A stretch of 64,000 bases of DNA, taken from assembly GCA_963920705.1 (NCBI GenBank), contig OY987227.1, forward strand, positions 9,217,602 to 9,281,601, given 5' to 3'. The notes under the pieces are model-generated. The model worked only from the letters and a program-made list of their open reading frames with translations, searched no databases and had not been told where the DNA came from. Shown one piece after another: positions 15,436 to 64,000 of the stretch; position 1 is the first letter of the stretch, and each line of letters starts with the position of its first letter. This DNA is from Odiellus spinosus (taxonomy: Eukaryota > Arthropoda > Arachnida > Opiliones > Phalangiidae). The position numbers and the translations under genes were made by a program.

Positions 15436-15990
15436 TTATATTTTCCTATAATTTCGGTAATTCTCTTATATTTTCCTATAATTTCGGTAATTCTCTTATA
15501 TTTTCCCATAATTTCGGTCATTCTCTTATATTTTCCTATAATTTCGGTAATTCTCTTATATTTTCCTATAATTTCGGTAATTCTCTTATATTTTCCTATA
15601 ATTTCGGTAATTCTCTTATATTTTCCTATAATTTCGGTAATTCTCTTATATTTTCCTATAATTTCGGTAATTCTCTTATATTTTCCGATAATTTCGGTAA
15701 TTCTCTTATATTTTCCGATAATTTCGGTAATTCTCCTATATTTTCCGATAATTTCGGTAATTCTCTTATATTTTCCGATAATTTCGGTAATTCTCTTATA
15801 TTTTCCGATAATTTCGGTAATTCTCTTATATTTTCCGATAATTTCGGTAATTCTCTTATATTTTCCGATAATTTCGGTAATTCTCCTATATTTTCCGATA
15901 ATTTCGGTAATTCTCCTATATTTTCCGATAATTTCGGTAATTCTCCTATATTTTCCGATAATTTCGGTAATTCTCTTATATTTTCTTATA
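15436..15990. repeat. 30-bp minisatellite, 18 full units
   Basis: The unit TTATATTTTCCTATAATTTC plus GGTAATTCTC repeats every 30 bp. Units 1-8 carry CCTATA (one CCCATA) and units 9-18 carry CCGATA, so the array has two homogenised halves. Because 30 is a multiple of three, one frame stays open for 219 codons and reads LLYFPIISVI over and over. I regard this as an artefact of the period, not a gene. Confidence 0.92.
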
Positions 15991-19141: not shown

Positions 19142-19975
19142 TCAAATTTGGTAGGGAAATTAAAATAAAGGTCAAATTTGGTAAATGAATTAAAATAAAG
19201 GTCAAATTTGGTAGGGGAATTTAAATTAAGGTCCAAATTTGGTAGGGAAATTTAAATTAAGGTCCAAATTTGGTAGGGAAATTTAAATTAAGGTCCAAAT
19301 TTGGTAGGGAAATTTAAATTAAGGTCCAAATTTGGTAGGGAAATTTAAATTAAGGTCCAAATTTGGTAGGGAAATTTAAATAAAGGTCAAATTTGGTAGG
19401 GAAATTATTTAAAGGTCTTTGGTAAGGAAATTTAAATAAAGGTCAAATTGTGTAGGGAATTTTAAGTAAAGGTCAAATTTGGTAGGGAAATTTAAATTAA
19501 GGTCCAAATTTGGTAGAAAAATTTAATTAAGGTCAAATTTGGTAGAAAAATTTAATTAAGGTCAAATTTGGTAGAAAAATTTAAATAAGGTCCAAATTTC
19601 GTAGAAAAATTTTAATAAGGTCCAAATTTGGTAGAAAAATTTAATTAAGGTCAAATTTGGTAGAAAAATTCAATTAAGGTCAAATTTGGTAGAAAAATTT
19701 AATTAAGGTCAAATTTGGTAGAAAAATTTAAATAAGGTCCAAATTTGGTAGAAAAATTTAAATAAGGTCCAAATTTGGTAGAAAAATTTAAATAAGGTCC
19801 AAATTTGGTAGAAAAATTTAAATAAGGTCCAAATTTGGTAGAAAAATTTTAATAAGGTCCAAATTTGGTAGAAAAATTTAAATAAGGTCCAAATTTGGTA
19901 GAAAAATTTAAATAAGGTCAAATTTGGTAGGAAAATTTAAATATTAAAGGTCAAATTTGATAGGAAAATTGAAAA
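19142..19975. repeat. ~31-bp minisatellite, about 27 units
   Basis: Repeats of AAATTTGGTAGGGAAATTTA with AAGGTC(C). The left half uses GTAGGGAAA and the right half GTAGAAAAA, and unit length wobbles between 29 and 32. A poly-A run at 19125-19140 precedes it. Frames reading FKFFYQIWTL are artefacts. Confidence 0.9.
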
Positions 19976-30773: not shown

Positions 30774-31221
30774 TCGGAACAACAACAACAACAAGTGGTG
30801 ATTGGTGGTCCTCATCACCATCACCATCATCATCACCATCAGTATCACCAGACACAGTCTTCGCTCGCCGGCGTACCTCCTACATCGTCGTCGCACCACG
30901 GACCCCCTAGTGGCGCCGGAGGTTCATCTTCGCCCTTGCCCGGGATGACCCCCGTCTCGCCCCGACGTTCCCTCTTGCAGCACAGCGACTCTTCGCATCT
31001 CTTGTCCAGTCACCATCACCATCATCATCACCATTACGATGATCTGCCCCTCGTGCAACTACTCCGAAAGACGCGAGGACCGTTTTCCCGTCAGACGTCC
31101 GAGGATTTAAAGAAACGAAGGGAAAGTTTCGCCGCTTTCTCCTCTCCTTCCGCCGGTTCCGCTTGTTACGGACATCTCATGATGACCAATCCTTCAGCCG
31201 CCGCCGGGGTCACTGGACAAG
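30774..31221 (+). CDS. MAST kinase coding exon 2 (His/Gln-rich)
   Basis: Encodes 149 residues plus one base. The acceptor is CTTAG ending at 30773 after a T-rich tract. The base triplet before the exon is an in-frame TAG, so the exon must be spliced to. The product begins SEQQQQQVVIGGP, followed by nine His codons, a Ser/Pro-rich linker, SPRRSLLQHSDS, a second run of eight His, then YDDLPLVQLLRKTRGPFS and RQTSEDLKKRRESFAAF. The donor is AAG before GTCAGT at 31222. The PLVQLLRK...RQTSEDL stretch sits where MAST2/MAST4 carry their PLLFRKLSNPD...RQLS segment, which supports the assignment. RRSL, RQTS and KRRES are basophilic phosphorylation-type motifs. Both His runs use mixed CAC/CAT codons, so they are not simple slippage tracts. 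I am sure of coding status and fairly sure of the family. Confidence 0.85.
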
Positions 31222-32367
31222 GTCAGTTTAACGTCAAATTGATTAAATAGATGAGTTATAATGAGGATTATGACAATTTATTTTATTAGTACATAAGGGA
31301 TAGTAACACGATTTGGACCAATTTTTAATTTGAACGAAAACACTTATAATTAAATTTATCATGCAACGAGTGATTTTTACTATCGATTCCCTTTTCGTTT
31401 ATATAAGCTTAATCTACTAATATTAAGCTGAAAATCAATTTTTAACTCGGAAAGTAGGCTTAGAAATAATCCATTAAGAGTTTGATATCTTGTAGTACAA
31501 AGGCCCATTGACTAATCGCGCGAAAGCTGGCGCGCGCATTATTACGGCATTAAAACGATTCAAATTAGGCTTAAGAGGGGCGCGCGCTTTGTTCCGACAT
31601 TAAAACGTTTCAAATTAGGCTTAAGAGGAACACCCTTTCCTTCTGTCGGAGACTCTAACAACGAAATATCAAACTCTCGATGGATCCTTGCTAAGCCTAC
31701 ATTTGTTAGCAATGGGGTAGTTGCCTATTTAAACGCTAAGAACTGGATTAAGAAAATCACTTGTTATAGGGTTGCATTCTCCCTTTAGGGGATTAGCGTG
31801 TGTTTTGATTCTGTAAACATGTCTTATTTTTAGAAGCAGAATGAATAATAAATAATTCGACTTTCCTCTTCAACCTCTCTTTAAGGCTAATATTTTCTAG
31901 TAACTTGAAAACTGAAACCCATTTTTAACGTATATTGTTTTTATAATAATTAATTCAAAATCGTGCCGTTTTCTAATGCGGCCTGTTAACGATATTTAAT
32001 CCCTCGGTAAAAACTCTAATTTCCTTCGTTCGCAAACAATCGATTTGGAAGGGTTTAGTTCATAATAGTGTGAAAGTGAAATCAACGAAGTCTGTTGAAT
32101 TTTTATCTCTATAAGATTGTTGTAATTAAAAAGTATTTGCGTAGTATTTAATGTTATTTTTACCTAGAATTTATTTAAATCTGTTTGAGAGAGAATCGCG
32201 ACATTGGACCTTTGTCCAGTCATGACAAAGTATGTCCAGTTTCCCTACCATTTCTGGACTTAAAAAAAAATAGGCCGTGTTATTTTTTAGCTTTCAGTGT
32301 TTGTTTCGTCATGACGACTTAAATTGGTGAAACCAATTTGTAACTTAATCTATTTTTATTTTCTTAG
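31222..32367 (+). other. Intron 2 (1,146 bp)
   Basis: GTCAGT donor and TTTTCTTAG acceptor. It contains the MITE-B-like element at 31349-31793. The remainder (31794-32340) is AT-rich with no second exon seen. Confidence 0.85.
31349..31793. mobile_element. Divergent MITE-B-like element inside intron 2
   Basis: Begins near ACGAGTGATTTTTACTATCG and ends GGTTGCATTCTCCCTTTA, as in family B. The middle differs: a ~50-bp unit with GGCGCGCGC, GGCATTAAAACG and TTCAAATTAGGCTTAAGAGG is present twice (31530-31630). Inverted TTTGATATCTTGTAG-type and GAAATATCAAACTC words surround the unit. Confidence 0.6.
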
Positions 32368-32447
32368 GTTCTTCGGAAACGTCTAATTTGGTTCGGATGC
32401 GAAGTTCTCTGCTTGGACAGTCGGCTCCATCTCTCTCCGCTAGTATG
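32368..32447 (+). CDS. MAST kinase coding exon 3
   Basis: 80 nt with acceptor TTCTTAG and donor ATG before GTAAGT. It joins exon 2 in phase to read GSSETSN then LVRMRSSLLGQSAPSLSASM. This is the hallmark ETSNLVRMRSxxLGQSAPSLTA block at the N-terminus of MAST2 and MAST4 and is the strongest single proof of gene identity in the long form. It ends in phase 0. In vertebrate MASTs the next residues are KELSLPRRG, which is exactly what the exon at 62827 supplies (KELSISRRG). The intron to that exon is therefore 30.4 kb. Confidence 0.95.
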
Positions 32448-36390: not shown

Positions 36391-36571
36391 GGTTGAGATT
36401 GGGTTGCGATTGGGTTGCGATTGGGTTGAGATTGGGTTGAGATTGGGTTGAGATTGGGTTGAGATTGGGTTGAGATTGGGTTGAGATTGGGTTGAGATTG
36501 GGTTGAGATTGGGTTGAGATTGGGTTGAGATTGGGTTGAGATTGGGTTGAGATTGGGTTGAGATTGGGTTG
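36391..36571. repeat. 11-bp G-rich tandem repeat, ~16 units
   Basis: The unit is GGTTGAGATTG, i.e. TTGGGTTGAGA; the first two or three units carry TTGCGATTGGG instead. G runs of three are spaced by eight bases on one strand. The complementary frame reads NPISTQSQP repeats because 11 cycles through all three frames, and is not a gene. Confidence 0.92.
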
Positions 36572-46555: not shown

Positions 46556-47010
46556 AAGTTACGGACATTTTAAATTAATTGAGTTTGATGATGCCAGATT
46601 TTTTAAATAGTATGAAAAAACTAAAAATACAATCTATAAACAAATGGCCTTTATAAATACTAAAATCATAATGCCAATTAAAATATTTACTTGTTTTTCT
46701 ATTGTACAGGGTGGAAACCTTCGCCGGCGTCCAGTCGAGATACTTCCCCTTACGCATTGTTGTTATTCAGTGAAATGTTAAGGAATTTACAGGCGCTATT
46801 GGGATCAGTTCACTTCAGTTCCACTTAATAATCAAAGGTTTCAGTTTTAATGTAGAGAAATGAAATGCATAAGTGAAATCAATGACGGATTTAATTTAAT
46901 TTAATTAGGAAAGAAAAGATGTCGCTTGCGGAAACCAAACAGCCCAAATTGAAGTTAATCAAACATTTCCAAATTTAAACATTAAACTCTTCAAATTTAA
47001 TAACAAAGCA

Positions 47011-47559
47011 TTACATTAAATGTTCAAAATGTCTTCCGTCGACATTGACACATTGCCGACAACGGAATTGCCAGTTTTCTCTTTCGCGAGTTAACATCTC
47101 GGGAGAAACGAGAGCAGCCGCTTGCTGAATTCGGTCTCGAAGGCTATCAAGTGTTGGTGGCTCAGTGGCGTACACAAGGCTTTGTACATACCCCCAAAAG
47201 AAAAAATCCACCGGCGTTAAATCTGGCGAACGAGGTGGCCAAGCGACTGGACCACCACGACCTATCCATTGGGGACCGAATTCCGCGTCTAGCCAATCCC
47301 GAGAAACACGTGCAAAATGCGGTGGTGCACCATCGTGCTGGTACCAGACTCGTCTTCGTTCTGCTAAGGGAAGATCGTCTAGGGCATCGGACACTACGGT
47401 GTTTAAGAGATCAACGTAACGATCTCCGTTTAGATATTCTTCGAGAAAAACAGGTCCAATTACCCGATCACCTAACAATCCACACCAAACGTTTATCCTC
47501 CAGTTTTCTTGGTGATGATTCCCCCTTAGCCAATGGGGATTTTCCCTCGACCACCGCAT
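47011..47559 (-). pseudogene. Transposase C-terminal fragment, left arm + spacer
   Basis: 182 codons on the minus strand with family motifs in order: NWRINVWCGLLGD, IGPVFLEEYLNG, VWYQHDGAPPHFARV, WIGRGGPVAWPPRSPDLTPV and DFFFWGYVQSLVY. This is the catalytic half of a Tc1/mariner/IS630-superfamily DDE transposase. The HDGA Asp is the second acid and the SPDL Asp the third; I count 36 residues between them. The first catalytic Asp and the N-terminal helix-turn-helix are missing because the reading frame begins only at the palindrome junction (~47555). Complete family members are roughly twice as long. The fragment has no in-frame stop, but it cannot encode an active enzyme. The open frames on the opposite strand (47151-47786) are shadows. 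Confidence 0.9.
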
Positions 47560-47883
47560 TTTGCACGTGTTTCTCGGGATTCGCTAGACCCGGAATTCGG
47601 TCCCCAATGGATAGGTCGTGGTGGTCCAGTCGCTTGGCCACCTCGTTCGCCAGATTTAACGCCGGTCGATTTTTTCTTTTGGGGGGTATGTACAAAGCCT
47701 TGTGTACGCCACTGAGCCACCAACACTTGATAGCCTTCGAGACCGAATTCAGCAAGCGGCTGCTCTCGTTTCTCCCGAGATGTTAACTCGCGAAAGAGAA
47801 AACTGGCAATTCCGTTGTCGGCAATGTGTCAATGTTGACGGAAGACATTTTGAACATTTAATGTAATGCTTTGTTATTAAATT
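47551..47883 (+). pseudogene. Transposase C-terminal fragment, right arm
   Basis: This is the inverted second copy of the same transposase end, reading outward on the plus strand: PPHFARVSRDSLDPEFGPQW and then the WIGRGGPVAWPPRSPDL block. One extra G in a G run near 47681 shifts the frame after DFFFWG, so the rest continues in another frame (up to ...RHFEHLM near 47860). It also lacks the spacer-encoded part upstream of PPHFA. Clearly non-functional. Confidence 0.85.
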
Positions 47884-48501
47884 TGAAGAGTTTAATGTTT
47901 AAATTTGGAAATGTTTGATTAACTTCAATTTGGGCTATTTGGTTTCCGCAAGTGACATCTTTTCTTTCCTAATTAAATTAAATTAAATCCGTCATTGATT
48001 TCACTTATGCATTTCATTTCTCTACATTAAAACTGAAACCTTTGATTATTAAGTGGAACTGAAGTGAACTGATCCCAATAGCGCCTGTAAATCCCTTAAC
48101 ATTTCACTGAATAACAACAATGCGCAAGGGGAAGTATCTCGACTGGACGCCGGCGAAGGTTTCCACCCTGTATATAACTACCGCTATTTTTTTCTTCAAA
48201 CAAGTTACACCACAAATTTCACGCGTGTTTAATTTTAAACAAGTATATAAGAGGGGTCAAAACTATTTTATTTTTTTCACAAGACTTAATTTGTATTAGA
48301 TTAATATCAGCTCCCTAGCTGCCTTTGATCGCGCTTGGATCTATGAGGGTGATTTAAAATTTTGAGGTCTGGGAGGTTTCAAATATCACGTTTCACTTTT
48401 TGAGATTTTTACTATTACTATTATTATTATTACAAAGGGCTAGGTACCGAAACATTTTTGGTAAATTGCGTGGCCCCGCAAAAGGTTCTGGGTAATTATC
48501 G

Positions 48502-48517: not shown

Positions 48518-48950
48518 GTACGGTGACGTAACTTTTTTAAAATCTTAATGGTTCCTTATACTACTGTTGGTTTATTTAGGCTATAGAGGGTGGTGGACCG
48601 CGTAATCGTCCGATTATTGGTCAAAAAATACAGTCTTAGTACCTCTTAATATTAAAGAAACTTGTTTGTCCAGAATTTTTACTTTTTTTTTTTACGTAGT
48701 ACGCTAGGAAAGGCGTTATTCGTGTCAAAATAGTATTAAACGGTTCTGAATTATATCACTCAAACATTCAGAGAACGTTTTTAAAAGTACAATAATTTTA
48801 GTATTTCTAAAAAAAAATCTTTTGGTTTTTTAGAAATTGTTTGAAATGCAAAATTTTTCATACATTTAATGAATGTAATATTTTAAATGAGAGCTTAATG
48901 GTTTGGATTAAAAAATTTGGAAAATTAGTAGTAGGCAAATATCCTAGCGA

Positions 48951-49362
48951 GAAAAAATTCAAATAAGCCAATATTATAATGAGAAAAATTCAAATAGGCC
49001 AATATTGTAATGAGAAAAATTCAAATAGGCCAATATTCTAATGAGAAAAATTAAATTAGGGCAATATTCTAACGAGAAAAATTAAAATGGGCCCATATTC
49101 TAACGAGAAAATTTTAAATATGCCTATATTCTAACGAGAAAAATTAAAATAGATCGATATTCTAAAGAAAAAAAATAAAATAGGCCAATATAGTCTAACG
49201 AGAAAAATTAAAATAGATCGATATTCTAAAGAAAAAAAATTAAAATAGGCCGATAGTCTAACGAGAAAAATTAAAATAGGCCAATATTCTAATGATAAAA
49301 ATTAAATTAGGTCAGTAGTCTAACGAGAAAAATTAAAATAGGCCAATATTCTAATGAACACA
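48951..49362. repeat. ~31-bp minisatellite, ~13 units
   Basis: The unit is GAGAAAAATTAAAATAGGCC plus AATATTCTAAC, with variation in the GGCC/GATC/GTCA position. A sub-pattern of two alternating units (AGGCC and AGATCG types) is visible at 49140-49260. A more degenerate tail runs to ~49625. Confidence 0.85.
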
Positions 49363-57942: not shown

Positions 57943-58719
57943 ACAGGGTTGCCACAGGTCAGGGAAAACAGGGAAAAGTCAGGGAATTTGAAAATGAACC
58001 AAAAAAGTCAGGGAATTTAAATACATTTTAAAAAGTCAGGGAATTTAAATACATTTTAAAAAGTCAGGGAATTTAAATACATTTTAAAAAGTCAGGGAAT
58101 TTAAATACATTTTAAAAAGTCAGGGAATTTAAATACATTTTAAAAAGTCAGGGAATTTAAATACATTTTAAAAAGTCAGGGAATTTAAATACATTTTAAA
58201 AAGTCAGGGAATTTAAATACATTTTAAAAAGTCAGGGAATTTAAATACATTTTAAAAAGTCAGGGAATTTAAATACATTTTAAAAAGTCAGGGAATTTAA
58301 ATACATTTTAAAAAGTCAGGGAATTTAAATACATTTTAAAAAGTCAGGGAATTTAAATACATTTTAAAAAGTCAGGGAATTTAAATACATTTTAAAAAGT
58401 CAGAGAATTTAAATACATTTTAAAAAGTCAGGGAATTTAAATACATTTTAAAAAGTCAGGGAATTTAAAGATCTTTCAAGAAGCCAGGGAATTACAATCA
58501 TTATCTACAGAAAAGATTTGAAGCTGACCGTGTCATTTGTATAGATTAGAAAAAAGATACGCGTGCAAAAAGTTTGGCGAACGCAATTATATAAAAAATA
58601 AAAGGTTAAACATTGGGTAGTATTAGCTGAAACAGTCAGGGAAAATCATTGGAAACAGTCAGGGAGAAACCTGGAAAAGTCAGGGAATTTGAATCTGAAA
58701 AAACAGAGGCAACCCTGTT
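57943..58719. mobile_element. CAGGGTTGCC element with internal 28-bp array
   Basis: The termini ACAGGGTTGCC and GGCAACCCTGT are inverted repeats. The interior is built of GTCAGGGAATTT words. From 58007 to 58454, 16 almost identical units of 28 bp (GTCAGGGAATTTAAATACAT plus TTTAAAAA) have been amplified, with one G-to-A variant. A second, unarrayed start (CAGGGTTGCCACAG) follows at 58728. Non-coding; superfamily unknown. Confidence 0.8.
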
Positions 58720-60919: not shown

Positions 60920-62267
60920 TACTTCAGCCAATCAATACACCAATTTCCTTTCGCTCAAGGCTTAGTTTTGATGGCCATTCTTAGTTTTAGTCCAGCCCGC
61001 TTCTTCCCCTTTTGATACGAAAGCGAACTCTCTGTATGTCCTCAGCAGCCGTATGTTATGTTTACGCGTAATATATTTTGACAAGAAAACGGTCAAACAT
61101 AATATATACGCGACGAGATAGTTGTTTTAATATATCAGACCTTCGCGAAAACGAGATACTATAAGTCTAACAATATCGGTTTTCTTTGGCGGGAAAAAAG
61201 GGCGCGTCTTTCAAGATTAATTCAGTCCAAGATTTCATTGGTCCCTAAAACTATCTCTATTATAAATAGTTTTAAGATACAAAGGGTTTAAACCTTAACC
61301 CCGTATTAACATCTCCGACTGATTCCGTATCTGATCGTGTCGCCCGATTAATTATTACCGAATTTCTCTATAATATTTTTGTCGGGTCAAGGATATCCGC
61401 GACTTTTATTTTTATCGTTTTATTTTAAGCGATTATTACGATATTAGGCCTACTTTAAAAGACGGTTTAATGAACCATTGGTGTTAACTATCGCGTTAGG
61501 CGTCAATCGTAATTTAAAACGGATACGAGATGAAGAGGAAAAAATGAATTCCCAAATAATATATATTGATTTTCGATATCCGAGCCAAAATTTACTCTTT
61601 CGTAATGCGTCCCAAAATGAGACTGAAATGGATAATTGACTAGGGTTGTCACGAATCAGGGATAATCTGGAAAAGTTCGGGGAATTTTAAATGCTATGAA
61701 ATTTGGTTCAAAATGTCAGGGAAATGTCAAGAAATTTTAAGATTGATCCAAATTTGTATAAATTTTCCAAACTTCTGGAATTTGACCTGATTATATTTTT
61801 GGAACAATTTTCAAATTCCCTGACTTTTTCCTTACTTTTAAACGCTAGCCTTTTAATTAAATTTCAGGGAATTTGAAAATTAGTCAAAAAGATCAGGGAA
61901 TTGTGTCAGGAAACTAGGTATTTCTCTCAAGATGGCTCGTTCCAAATGATAGTCATTTGGTCAATGAACATGTTTAAAACAGGTGTAGGTATTTGAAATG
62001 CAAATTTTATGGCAAAACTTTTGACCTAATTTTTAGGCCTAACAATAAATTATAACATCCATTTCATGCATCGTCTCTTGAATATACACGGCCCATTTCA
62101 TTTCTGTCTAAGCGTACTAAAATTTATCTCCGACGCGCTTATGTTTCTAGCGTTCAGTCACAATCTTAGCGAGAGAGAGATGAAGTTTAGGGTTTTGATC
62201 TACGCGGATTATCTCCGCGGGGGAGTACTCTTTAAGATGGACGGAAAGCGAGTCGGGCCTATTGGTG
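60920..62267 (+). promoter_or_regulatory. Putative internal promoter and 5' UTR of the short MAST form
   Basis: Lies directly before the alternative first exon. It contains CAGCCAATCAATACACCAAT (CCAAT-type words, ~60926) and TTTGGCGGGAAA at 61185-61196, a complete E2F/DP consensus, followed by GGGCGCG. The coding frame has a stop (TGA) at 62196-62198, and composition becomes CpG-rich from ~62130. The transcription start is unknown. A CAGGGAA-family remnant lies at 61640-61915. Confidence 0.4.
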
Positions 62268-62651
62268 ATGGCCAACAGAAAGCCGGAGTCGCCTTCTTCG
62301 CCGCGGTGGTGGAACGACGGAACGAATAAATCGTATTACAAACTATCGAAAATCGAAGCCGTTATTCGTTCGGTCAGGGGGTCGAAAATTATGGAGGAAA
62401 ACAGTCGCGAGTCTCGACTCTCCGTGGCGACGGCTGCTGGGGCGATCGCCCCGTCGGACACCGATGGGAATCGTTTAAATCACGTGACAGCGTCATCGAC
62501 TACCAATTCCACTTCCGGCGATAGTAGTCACCTTTTGAGCGTTGACGTTGTTCAACCCGGTATTCGACGAAGCGCAAGCGAAAGCGTGCTCAGAAAACGT
62601 AGTTTAACCTTAGCTTTGCCCTTTGGCTATTCTCCCGTTTCTCAACTAAAG
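62268..62651 (+). CDS. MAST kinase alternative first coding exon
   Basis: 128 codons from the first ATG (62268; G at -3 and +4) after an in-frame TGA at 62196. A second in-frame ATG at 62391 has A at -3 and G at +4 and could start an 87-codon version (MEENSRESRLSVATAAG). The product is Ser/Thr-rich and ends GIRRSASESVLRKRSLTLAL then PFGYSPVSQLK. The donor is AAG before GTGAGT at 62652, in phase 0, the same phase as exon 3. Either exon can therefore join KELSISRRG. Human MAST3 has the same design, a short unique N-terminus directly before KELSLPRRG (known family information). IRRSAS and RKRSLTL are basophilic phosphosite-like motifs. I saw no 3' splice site upstream, which supports a first exon. 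Coding status likely; use inferred. Confidence 0.75.
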
Positions 62652-62826
62652 GTGAGTACGTTTTCTCCAATTTGTTATCAATACGCGAAGTTTTAGTCGC
62701 AAACTTTGTACAATTAAATAATGATTTTAATACGGAACTTGTAAAACATTCGATCAGTATTTTACGTTCGAGGTTTTTTGAAAAATTTTATAGGACTAAT
62801 TTGGTTTTTTGTTTCGTTTTTTTCAG

Positions 62827-62855
62827 AAAGAACTAAGCATATCAAGAAGGGGAAG
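62827..62855 (+). CDS. MAST kinase 29-nt microexon (KELSISRRG)
   Basis: Acceptor TTTTTTTCAG, donor AAG before GTGAGA. It enters in phase 0 and encodes KELSISRRG plus two bases (AG). KELSLPRRG is an invariant word in MAST2, MAST3 and MAST4 directly after the SAPSLTA block or after MAST3's own first exon. The RRGR context is a basophilic site. This exon is the meeting point of the two inferred 5' routes (32368-32447 and 62268-62651). Confidence 0.93.
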
Positions 62856-63019
62856 GTGAGAAATACATCCCTTGTTTAAATTGTGTTTTTTAAAATGGGG
62901 ATTTTTTGGTCATTTTGAAAGTTGTTGTTTATTTACAATGAGACTCTGTAGAAGTGTAATATTGCTCAAGGAGAAGTCTTAACTCTTTATAAGAACGATT
63001 CCCCCCAAAAACAGCCTGT

Positions 63020-63200
63020 CATATCCTTTAAAGTCCTTAACTGCTCTAGAATCTGCTCCTTGAAAATTATCTTTGGTTAGTTTAGGCACACGGACTAGCT
63101 TAGCTTTGACAGTAAAATTTGTTAACGCCAACGTAGACTTCTAAGTAAGAAAATAAGGCAACTTTAAAGGGGCTCTAAAAATCGCGGATGGTCCATTTAA
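63020..63200 (+). repeat. Repeat J
   Basis: Collinear but diverged match to 10905-11050: AACTGCTCT, GAAAATTATCTT, GGCAACTTT and GCGGATGGTCC occur in the same order. Non-coding and of unknown origin. Confidence 0.5.
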
Positions 63201-63493
63201 AGGAGTCCTACATTAACTTTTAAGGGATGAGGCCTAGTCAGTAGTTACCTGCCTTGTAATTTGACTTCGAATGCTGTTGATGGTATGAAATAGGTCCAGC
63301 CCCTACATAAGAAAATTAAGACCCCTTTAATGTGTCTAAATACATGTATTCTGTAAAAATATTCTACTACTGTAGTGTTCCCTTTGAAGCTATACTTTTT
63401 AAAATGGAGAGTTTCTTAATAGGAATGATTTATAGATAGTTTAAGAATTCGGAGAACTCGTAAATGTACAGTCATGTGAAAAGATTTGTTCTA

Positions 63494-63666
63494 TTAAAGG
63501 GATACAGAACTATAATTAAAGTTATTTTTGAAATGTATTTTAAACGGATTTAGGCTTAGCTAGTCCAGTTCCAAATTTTGGTAATTACTGCGAAGCCTTT
63601 GGCGTATTTTAATGAAGTTTTTACGCAAATCGATTGAAAATAACTGGGTTAAGTGTATCCCTTTAA
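63494..63666. mobile_element. Small palindromic MITE
   Basis: The ends TTAAAGGGATACA and TGTATCCCTTTAA are perfect inverted repeats, 173 bp overall. The interior includes GGCTTAGCTAGTCC. The end word resembles the TTAAAGGGAGAATG ends of families A and B. Confidence 0.75.
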
Positions 63667-63786
63667 ATATCAAACTTCGCCCGAGAGAGAAGCTACGCAA
63701 TTATATAATTAAGTGTATAATCTAAATTATAGTCGATGCTCCGCTCGTAAAAGTTTAATTTGCAACACATCGCCCACTCATCCTAG

Positions 63787-63809
63787 ATGTCATTCGCCAA
63801 TATCCCAAG
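63787..63809 (+). CDS. MAST kinase 23-nt microexon (RCHSPISQ)
   Basis: Acceptor CACTCATCCTAG ending 63786, donor AAG before GTAAAT at 63810. With the AG left over from the previous exon it reads R-C-H-S-P-I-S-Q, and its last G completes GGT with the next exon, giving [20 protein letters not shown]. Vertebrate MASTs have RPHSPL shortly before SPLDSPRN, so the content fits as well as the frame. Without this exon the join 62855-63886 would read AGG TAG and stop. It was found by frame logic rather than by an open frame, and it is too short for ordinary gene finders. Confidence 0.9.
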
Positions 63810-63885
63810 GTAAATAGGAAACGTAACCGTAACCAGGATATACTTCTGTAACATACCCTATCTCTTGCTAACTCTGGTTTGACAG
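63810..63885 (+). other. Intron 5 (76 bp)
   Basis: GTAAAT donor and TTTGACAG acceptor; pyrimidine-rich before the acceptor. Short compared with the neighbouring introns. Confidence 0.88.
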
Positions 63886-64000
63886 GTAGTCCCCTTGACA
63901 GTCCTCGCAACATGTCACCCAGTCAACATTTTGCTTTCGTAGCTTCGGGAATCAAAAGAGGGGATGGTAGAAGGTGGTCCGTCGCTTCTCTACCTTCTTC
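63886..64000 (+). CDS. MAST kinase coding exon 6, partial (cut by window end)
   Basis: Reads G then [38 protein letters not shown], and runs off the window in phase. [11 protein letters not shown] and DGRRWSLASLPSSGYGTN are signature blocks of all MAST kinases, shortly before or at the start of the MAST pre-kinase domain (DUF1908). The kinase catalytic domain and PDZ domain lie further downstream, outside the window. MASTs are AGC-type Ser/Thr kinases that act at microtubules and membranes and bind PTEN-type partners through PDZ (family knowledge). The RRWSVAS serine is a conserved basophilic site. Identification is secure; orthology to a particular vertebrate MAST is not implied, since invertebrates usually have one gene. 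Confidence 0.96.

Follow-up and report, generated by a model that had tools for sequence, protein, structure and literature searches.

One credible microexon and, very probably, a 77-nt exon precede the DUF1908 exon of a MAST kinase gene in Odiellus spinosus

The window analysed here, a stretch of 64,000 nucleotides from the genome of Odiellus spinosus, holds the 5′ part of the gene for an animal MAST-family AGC kinase (Table 1). MAST kinases carry the DUF1908 domain ahead of the kinase domain. With the model that includes the exon at 32368, a profile search found the Pfam domain DUF1908 (PF08926) beginning at the 63886 exon, with an E-value of 1.9e-9 and 37.4 bits against a cut-off of 27.5. 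The match covers profile positions 1-42 of 281 and the remaining domain lies beyond the window end. As judged against presumed MAST segments, MAST motifs precede the domain; published peptides cover the 32368 and 63886 exons only. At the 32368 exon, which encodes LGQSAPSLSAS, a presumed MAST segment scores 81, and the runner-up in the window scores 30. Compared by eye, the same exon resembles a MAST4 phosphopeptide, SQALGQSAPSLTASLK (PMC12518468), and a Tasmanian devil MAST2 peptide, RNQSLGQSAPSLTAG (PMC12953634). A further devil MAST2 peptide, LDSPRNFSPNAPAPH, resembles the 63886 exon (PMC12953634). The DUF1908 match and these published peptides identify the gene as MAST, and together with the likenesses to presumed MAST segments they bear out the assignment made in the original prediction. 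When the literature was searched for MAST peptide strings, GQSAPSLT and the 63886-exon peptide were the only matches, and none covered the 29-nt or the 77-nt exon. These two exons were compared with segments that we take to be those of MAST1, MAST2 and MAST3. Mammals possess MAST1-4 and flies a single gene, drop out (PMC10419289), for which the annotated fly transcripts are described as varying only in the 3′ UTR (PMC4011086).

Table 1. Coordinates of the features discussed, in window positions.
Feature	Position	Strand	Basis and remarks
Probable upstream coding exon of a long isoform, His/Gln-rich	30774..31221	+	open frame, AG before 30774, donor
80-nt MAST exon, SSETSNLVRMRSSLLGQSAPSLSASM, phase 0 end	32368..32447	+	likeness to published peptides; score of a presumed MAST segment
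Probable alternative first coding exon, phase 0 end	62391..62651	+	open frame from 62199; donor AAAG/gtgagt
29-nt exon, KELSISRRG + 2 nt	62827..62855	+	AG/GT bounds; likeness to a presumed MAST motif
77-nt MAST exon (very probable), (AG)T-RCSARKSLICNTSPTHPRCHSPISQ-G	63733..63809	+	scores of a presumed MAST2 segment; includes 63787-63809 as its 3′ end
Downstream in-phase AG	63785..63786	+	acceptor of the original prediction; 11/16 pyrimidines and TTAAT
DUF1908-encoding exon, start	63886..64000	+	Pfam PF08926 match; exon cut by the window end

Apart from the kinase gene, the window contains a near-perfect palindrome at 46705-48172, with arms of 502 nt that are 98% complementary and lie 464 nt apart, and with a nested 136-nt pair. 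A transposase-like open reading frame is found within it on the minus strand (47011-47583; DDE_3, E 0.096, below the curated cut-off). We take the palindrome to be, perhaps, inverted mariner-type copies. A 30-nt tandem array of 18.3 copies with 98% matches occupies 15436-15985 and is open in three frames, two on the plus and one on the minus strand; further tandem arrays include those at 19143-19974, 36391-36571, 48932-49354 and 58002-58493. Searches gave no match to Rfam at gathering scores, no tRNA, and no match to PDB sequences up to E 10. Relatives were sought in a collection of genome contigs, with 304 pattern matches, and in one of viral contigs, with 20; tblastn confirmed none of them, but the records there are prokaryotic or viral and hence uninformative here.

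Two alternative 5′ ends of the gene are probable, one with the exons at 30.8 and 32.4 kb and the other with its own first exon at 62.4 kb. The exon at 30774 gave no Pfam match; it ends in phase 1 at the donor ACAAG/gtcagt and would join in frame to 32368, and it is a probable part of the MAST gene. The stretch 62199-62651 has in-frame ATGs at 62268 and 62391 and would provide an N-terminus of its own. If it is indeed a first exon, its promoter would fall near the end of a 30-kb intron.

The exon at 62827-62855 is the only credible microexon in the region. Its boundaries read tttttttcag/AAAGAA...GGGAAG/gtgaga, and both these AG/GT bounds and the donor after 62651 stand in the sequence as originally described. 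The encoded KELSISRRG resembles KELSLPRRG, which we take to be a MAST motif. Searched against the window, the presumed motif, as KELSLPRRGS, has its best score, 35, at this very exon, followed by 27 at the next place; 5 of 300 shuffled queries reached 35 or more somewhere in the 64 kb.

The original prediction had placed a second microexon of 23 nt at 63787-63809 and had argued from the reading frame. Its arithmetic is correct: 29 + 23 = 52 nt bridge phase 0 and phase 1 and leave the frame open. The acceptor at 63886 reads cag/GTAGT. Such arithmetic is easily satisfied by chance. For the join of 62391-62651 to 63886-64000, we counted all AG..GT exons of 8-90 nt, more than 40 nt apart, in the 1234 nt of 62652-63885. 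The frame stayed open with 1465 of 64150 exon pairs and with 23 of 389 single exons. Since so many chance pairs keep the frame, frame compatibility alone is weak evidence, and the credibility of the exons comes from homology rather than from frame-locking.

Homology places the start of the second exon further upstream. The frame through 63787 is open upstream as far as a TAA at 63710, and within it the sequence attatag/TCGATG offers an acceptor whose AG is 63731-63732. From 63733 the codons running from (AG)T CGA TGC to CCT AGA TGT CAT give S-RCSARKSLICNTSPTHPRCHSPISQ, and a 77-nt exon starting here adds 18 residues relative to the 23-nt model in the same frame. We searched the presumed MAST segments against the six frames of the window, in 4829 ORF pieces of at least 8 residues each. 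The best place for the MAST2 segment is 63725-63802, with a score of 67 against 38 for the runner-up, and none of 300 shuffled MAST2 queries reached 67 anywhere in the window. The MAST1 segment scores 65 at the 77-nt exon, the next place 37. For MAST3 the exon comes second, with 44 at 63734-63805 behind 48 at 31739-31783. At the latter place, RTGLRKSLVIGLHSP resembles the presumed MAST3 RSGNRKSLVVGTPSP; we set it aside, since the RKSL segment is expected after the 32368 exon and this place comes before it, and the likeness is probably chance. The upstream part alone scores 44, which 6 of 300 shuffled queries equalled somewhere in the window. Restricted to 17 of the 18 omitted codons (63734-63784), the score is 41, a value that 0 of 5000 shuffles reached (maximum 31). 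Whole models give the same ranking: 277 for the 77-nt, 250 for a 56-nt and 210 for the 23-nt exon against presumed MAST2, and 157, 134 and 126 against presumed MAST3. The 56-nt exon, from the acceptor at 63753, drops the RK of RKSL and was discarded. Openness as such is no evidence for the 77-nt exon, because an 18-codon stretch was open in 9096 of 29000 trials within the big intron. Published spacing settles nothing either: in devil MAST2, S101 (GQS) and S225 (RNFS) are 124 residues apart (PMC12953634), and that isoform has more between the two sites than either model, with 54 residues between the equivalent sites in the 77-nt and 36 in the 23-nt model.

Judged from these likenesses, the 23 nt very probably form the last part of the exon 63733-63809, set off by a misplaced 3′ splice site. 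The AG/GT-bounded segment 63787-63809 does exist, but its status as a microexon is not favoured by the homology, and the claim of two consecutive microexons thereby probably reduces to one. As 54 is divisible by three, the frame check behind it was blind to the error.

The two acceptors pull in different directions, since splice signals alone favour 63786 whereas homology favours 63732. The upstream acceptor is weak, with 8 pyrimidines in 16 positions and no yUnAy within 50 nt. The downstream one has 11 of 16 and a TTAAT whose A lies at -29. An inverted repeat of 17 nt, 82% complementary, pairs 63509-63525 with 63717-63733, the 3′ arm overlapping the 63732 acceptor; it may be chance in AT-rich sequence. 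Most likely the AG at 63785-63786 is simply part of the codons CCT AGA inside the 77-nt exon, and it is possible that it acts as a minor alternative 3′ splice site. We regard it as unlikely that the two sites form an alternative pair, 54 nt apart, which yields in-frame isoforms with and without the 18 residues, an arrangement that would be compatible with the 77-nt exon as the main form. The opposed preferences of signals and homology, for the last and the first AG respectively, would suit such a pair, and of the four AGs that follow the upstream stop and precede 63787, three are in phase (starts 63733, 63754 and 63787), but chance alone would give in-phase AGs in such a stretch. The further idea that the pair is regulated, toggling the 18-residue RKSL segment with the frame unchanged and so tuning phosphorylation or 14-3-3 binding, with the 29-nt exon alongside as an obligatory one, is very improbable. 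Were it true, it would be an in-frame means of varying the Ser/Arg-rich MAST segment.

With the 77-nt exon as the preferred second exon, the consequences of skipping change in part. Both exons are required for the kinase frame, as had been claimed, with phases running 0-2-1. Loss of the second exon leads to AGG TAG (TAG 63887-63889), for the 77-nt exon just as for the 23-nt one. Loss of the first had been expected to end at the same TAG; with the 77-nt exon it gives SMLRS and a stop at TAA 63748-63750, inside that exon. As the single skips stop at TAA 63748 and TAG 63887, this model has no shared stop. Skipping both does let reading continue, as stated, for 18 codons, but it then stops at TAG 63940.

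Regulated skipping of the 29-nt exon as an off switch through nonsense-mediated decay, perhaps in non-neural tissue, is quite improbable, although it is compatible with the 77-nt exon and loss of the 29-nt exon does bring in the TAA at 63748. A frameshift upon skipping is a general property of exons with lengths not divisible by three. At the 29-nt exon, the signs of neural (eMIC) regulation are mixed. Upstream of it are 14 pyrimidines in 16 positions and a CTAAT with its A at -28, and a branch-like site and pyrimidine-rich tract of this kind are reported for fly eMIC exons (PMC8797185). According to the same report, such exons have extremely weak 3′ splice sites with UGC motifs nearby, longer UCUC-bearing tracts and CUAAY branch points that are strong and, in the downstream case, unusually strong (PMC8797185). 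Against regulation, TGC is absent from the 100 nt preceding 62827, as it is from those preceding 63733 (upstream of 63787 it is found at -50 and -26), there is no UCUC or CUCU in the 100 nt upstream of the 29-nt exon, and the downstream intron 62856-63732 has no CTAAY. Moreover, the exon does not preserve the frame, unlike many microexons, which are described as frequently doing so (PMC10551640). A Mast2 microexon under Srrm4 control has been published and speaks for the switch (PMC11283458). We do not equate it with the 29-nt exon, because that report groups it with microexons of at most 27 nt and, where it is described, leaves its position within the gene unstated. As nothing in the sequence shows regulated skipping, the 29-nt and 77-nt exons are most likely spliced constitutively.

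That 29 and 23 nt are nevertheless two true consecutive microexons, with 63786 used and the upstream 54 nt intronic, deserves hardly any credence: the frame remains open and 63786 is preceded by more pyrimidines and the TTAAT branch-like site, but the discarded 54 nt encode the in-frame MAST-like peptide that none of 5000 shuffles equalled, and the model score falls from 277 to 210.

We therefore consider it highly likely that the window holds the 5′ part of a MAST gene in which the 29-nt and 77-nt exons, most likely constitutive, are followed by the DUF1908 exon, with probably two 5′ ends. Either 5′ end would splice into the common run 62827-62855, 63733-63809 and the 63886 exon, the 29-nt exon leading from phase 0 to 2, the 77-nt exon from phase 2 to 1, and the DUF1908 exon coming next. 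What the window shows directly are the open frames and splice dinucleotides, the match to DUF1908 and the likeness to presumed MAST segments; from them we infer actual splicing, constitutive use and the alternative 5′ ends. Published MAST peptides resemble the 32368 and 63886 exons, and for the 29-nt and 77-nt exons the comparison was with presumed MAST sequences. The region would thus show ordinary gene anatomy, in which one boundary had very probably been mis-set.

The 29-nt and 77-nt exons would together encode the Ser/Arg-rich segment immediately ahead of DUF1908, which may contribute phosphosites of the kind reported for that domain. According to one report, the DUF domain is considered to lack structure in its N-terminal part and has phosphosites that overlap predicted 14-3-3 motifs (PMC12024977); another describes frequent phosphorylation of the domain close to the N terminus (PMC12732324).

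The main value of the analysis lies in the correction, by which the predicted protein regains 18 residues. The case also illustrates that, with frame arithmetic as the sole guide, an AG within a coding exon can be mistaken for the acceptor of a microexon. Compared with eMIC/SRRM4 microexons, the 29-nt exon shares the very small size, the upstream CTAAT branch-like site and the pyrimidine-rich tract, but it is not a multiple of three and has no upstream TGC or UCUC. Compared with MAST kinases, the window holds the N-terminal part only and has a linker that falls several residues short of the presumed MAST2 one, but the DUF1908 domain and the order of motifs, as presumed for the family, are those of MAST kinases.
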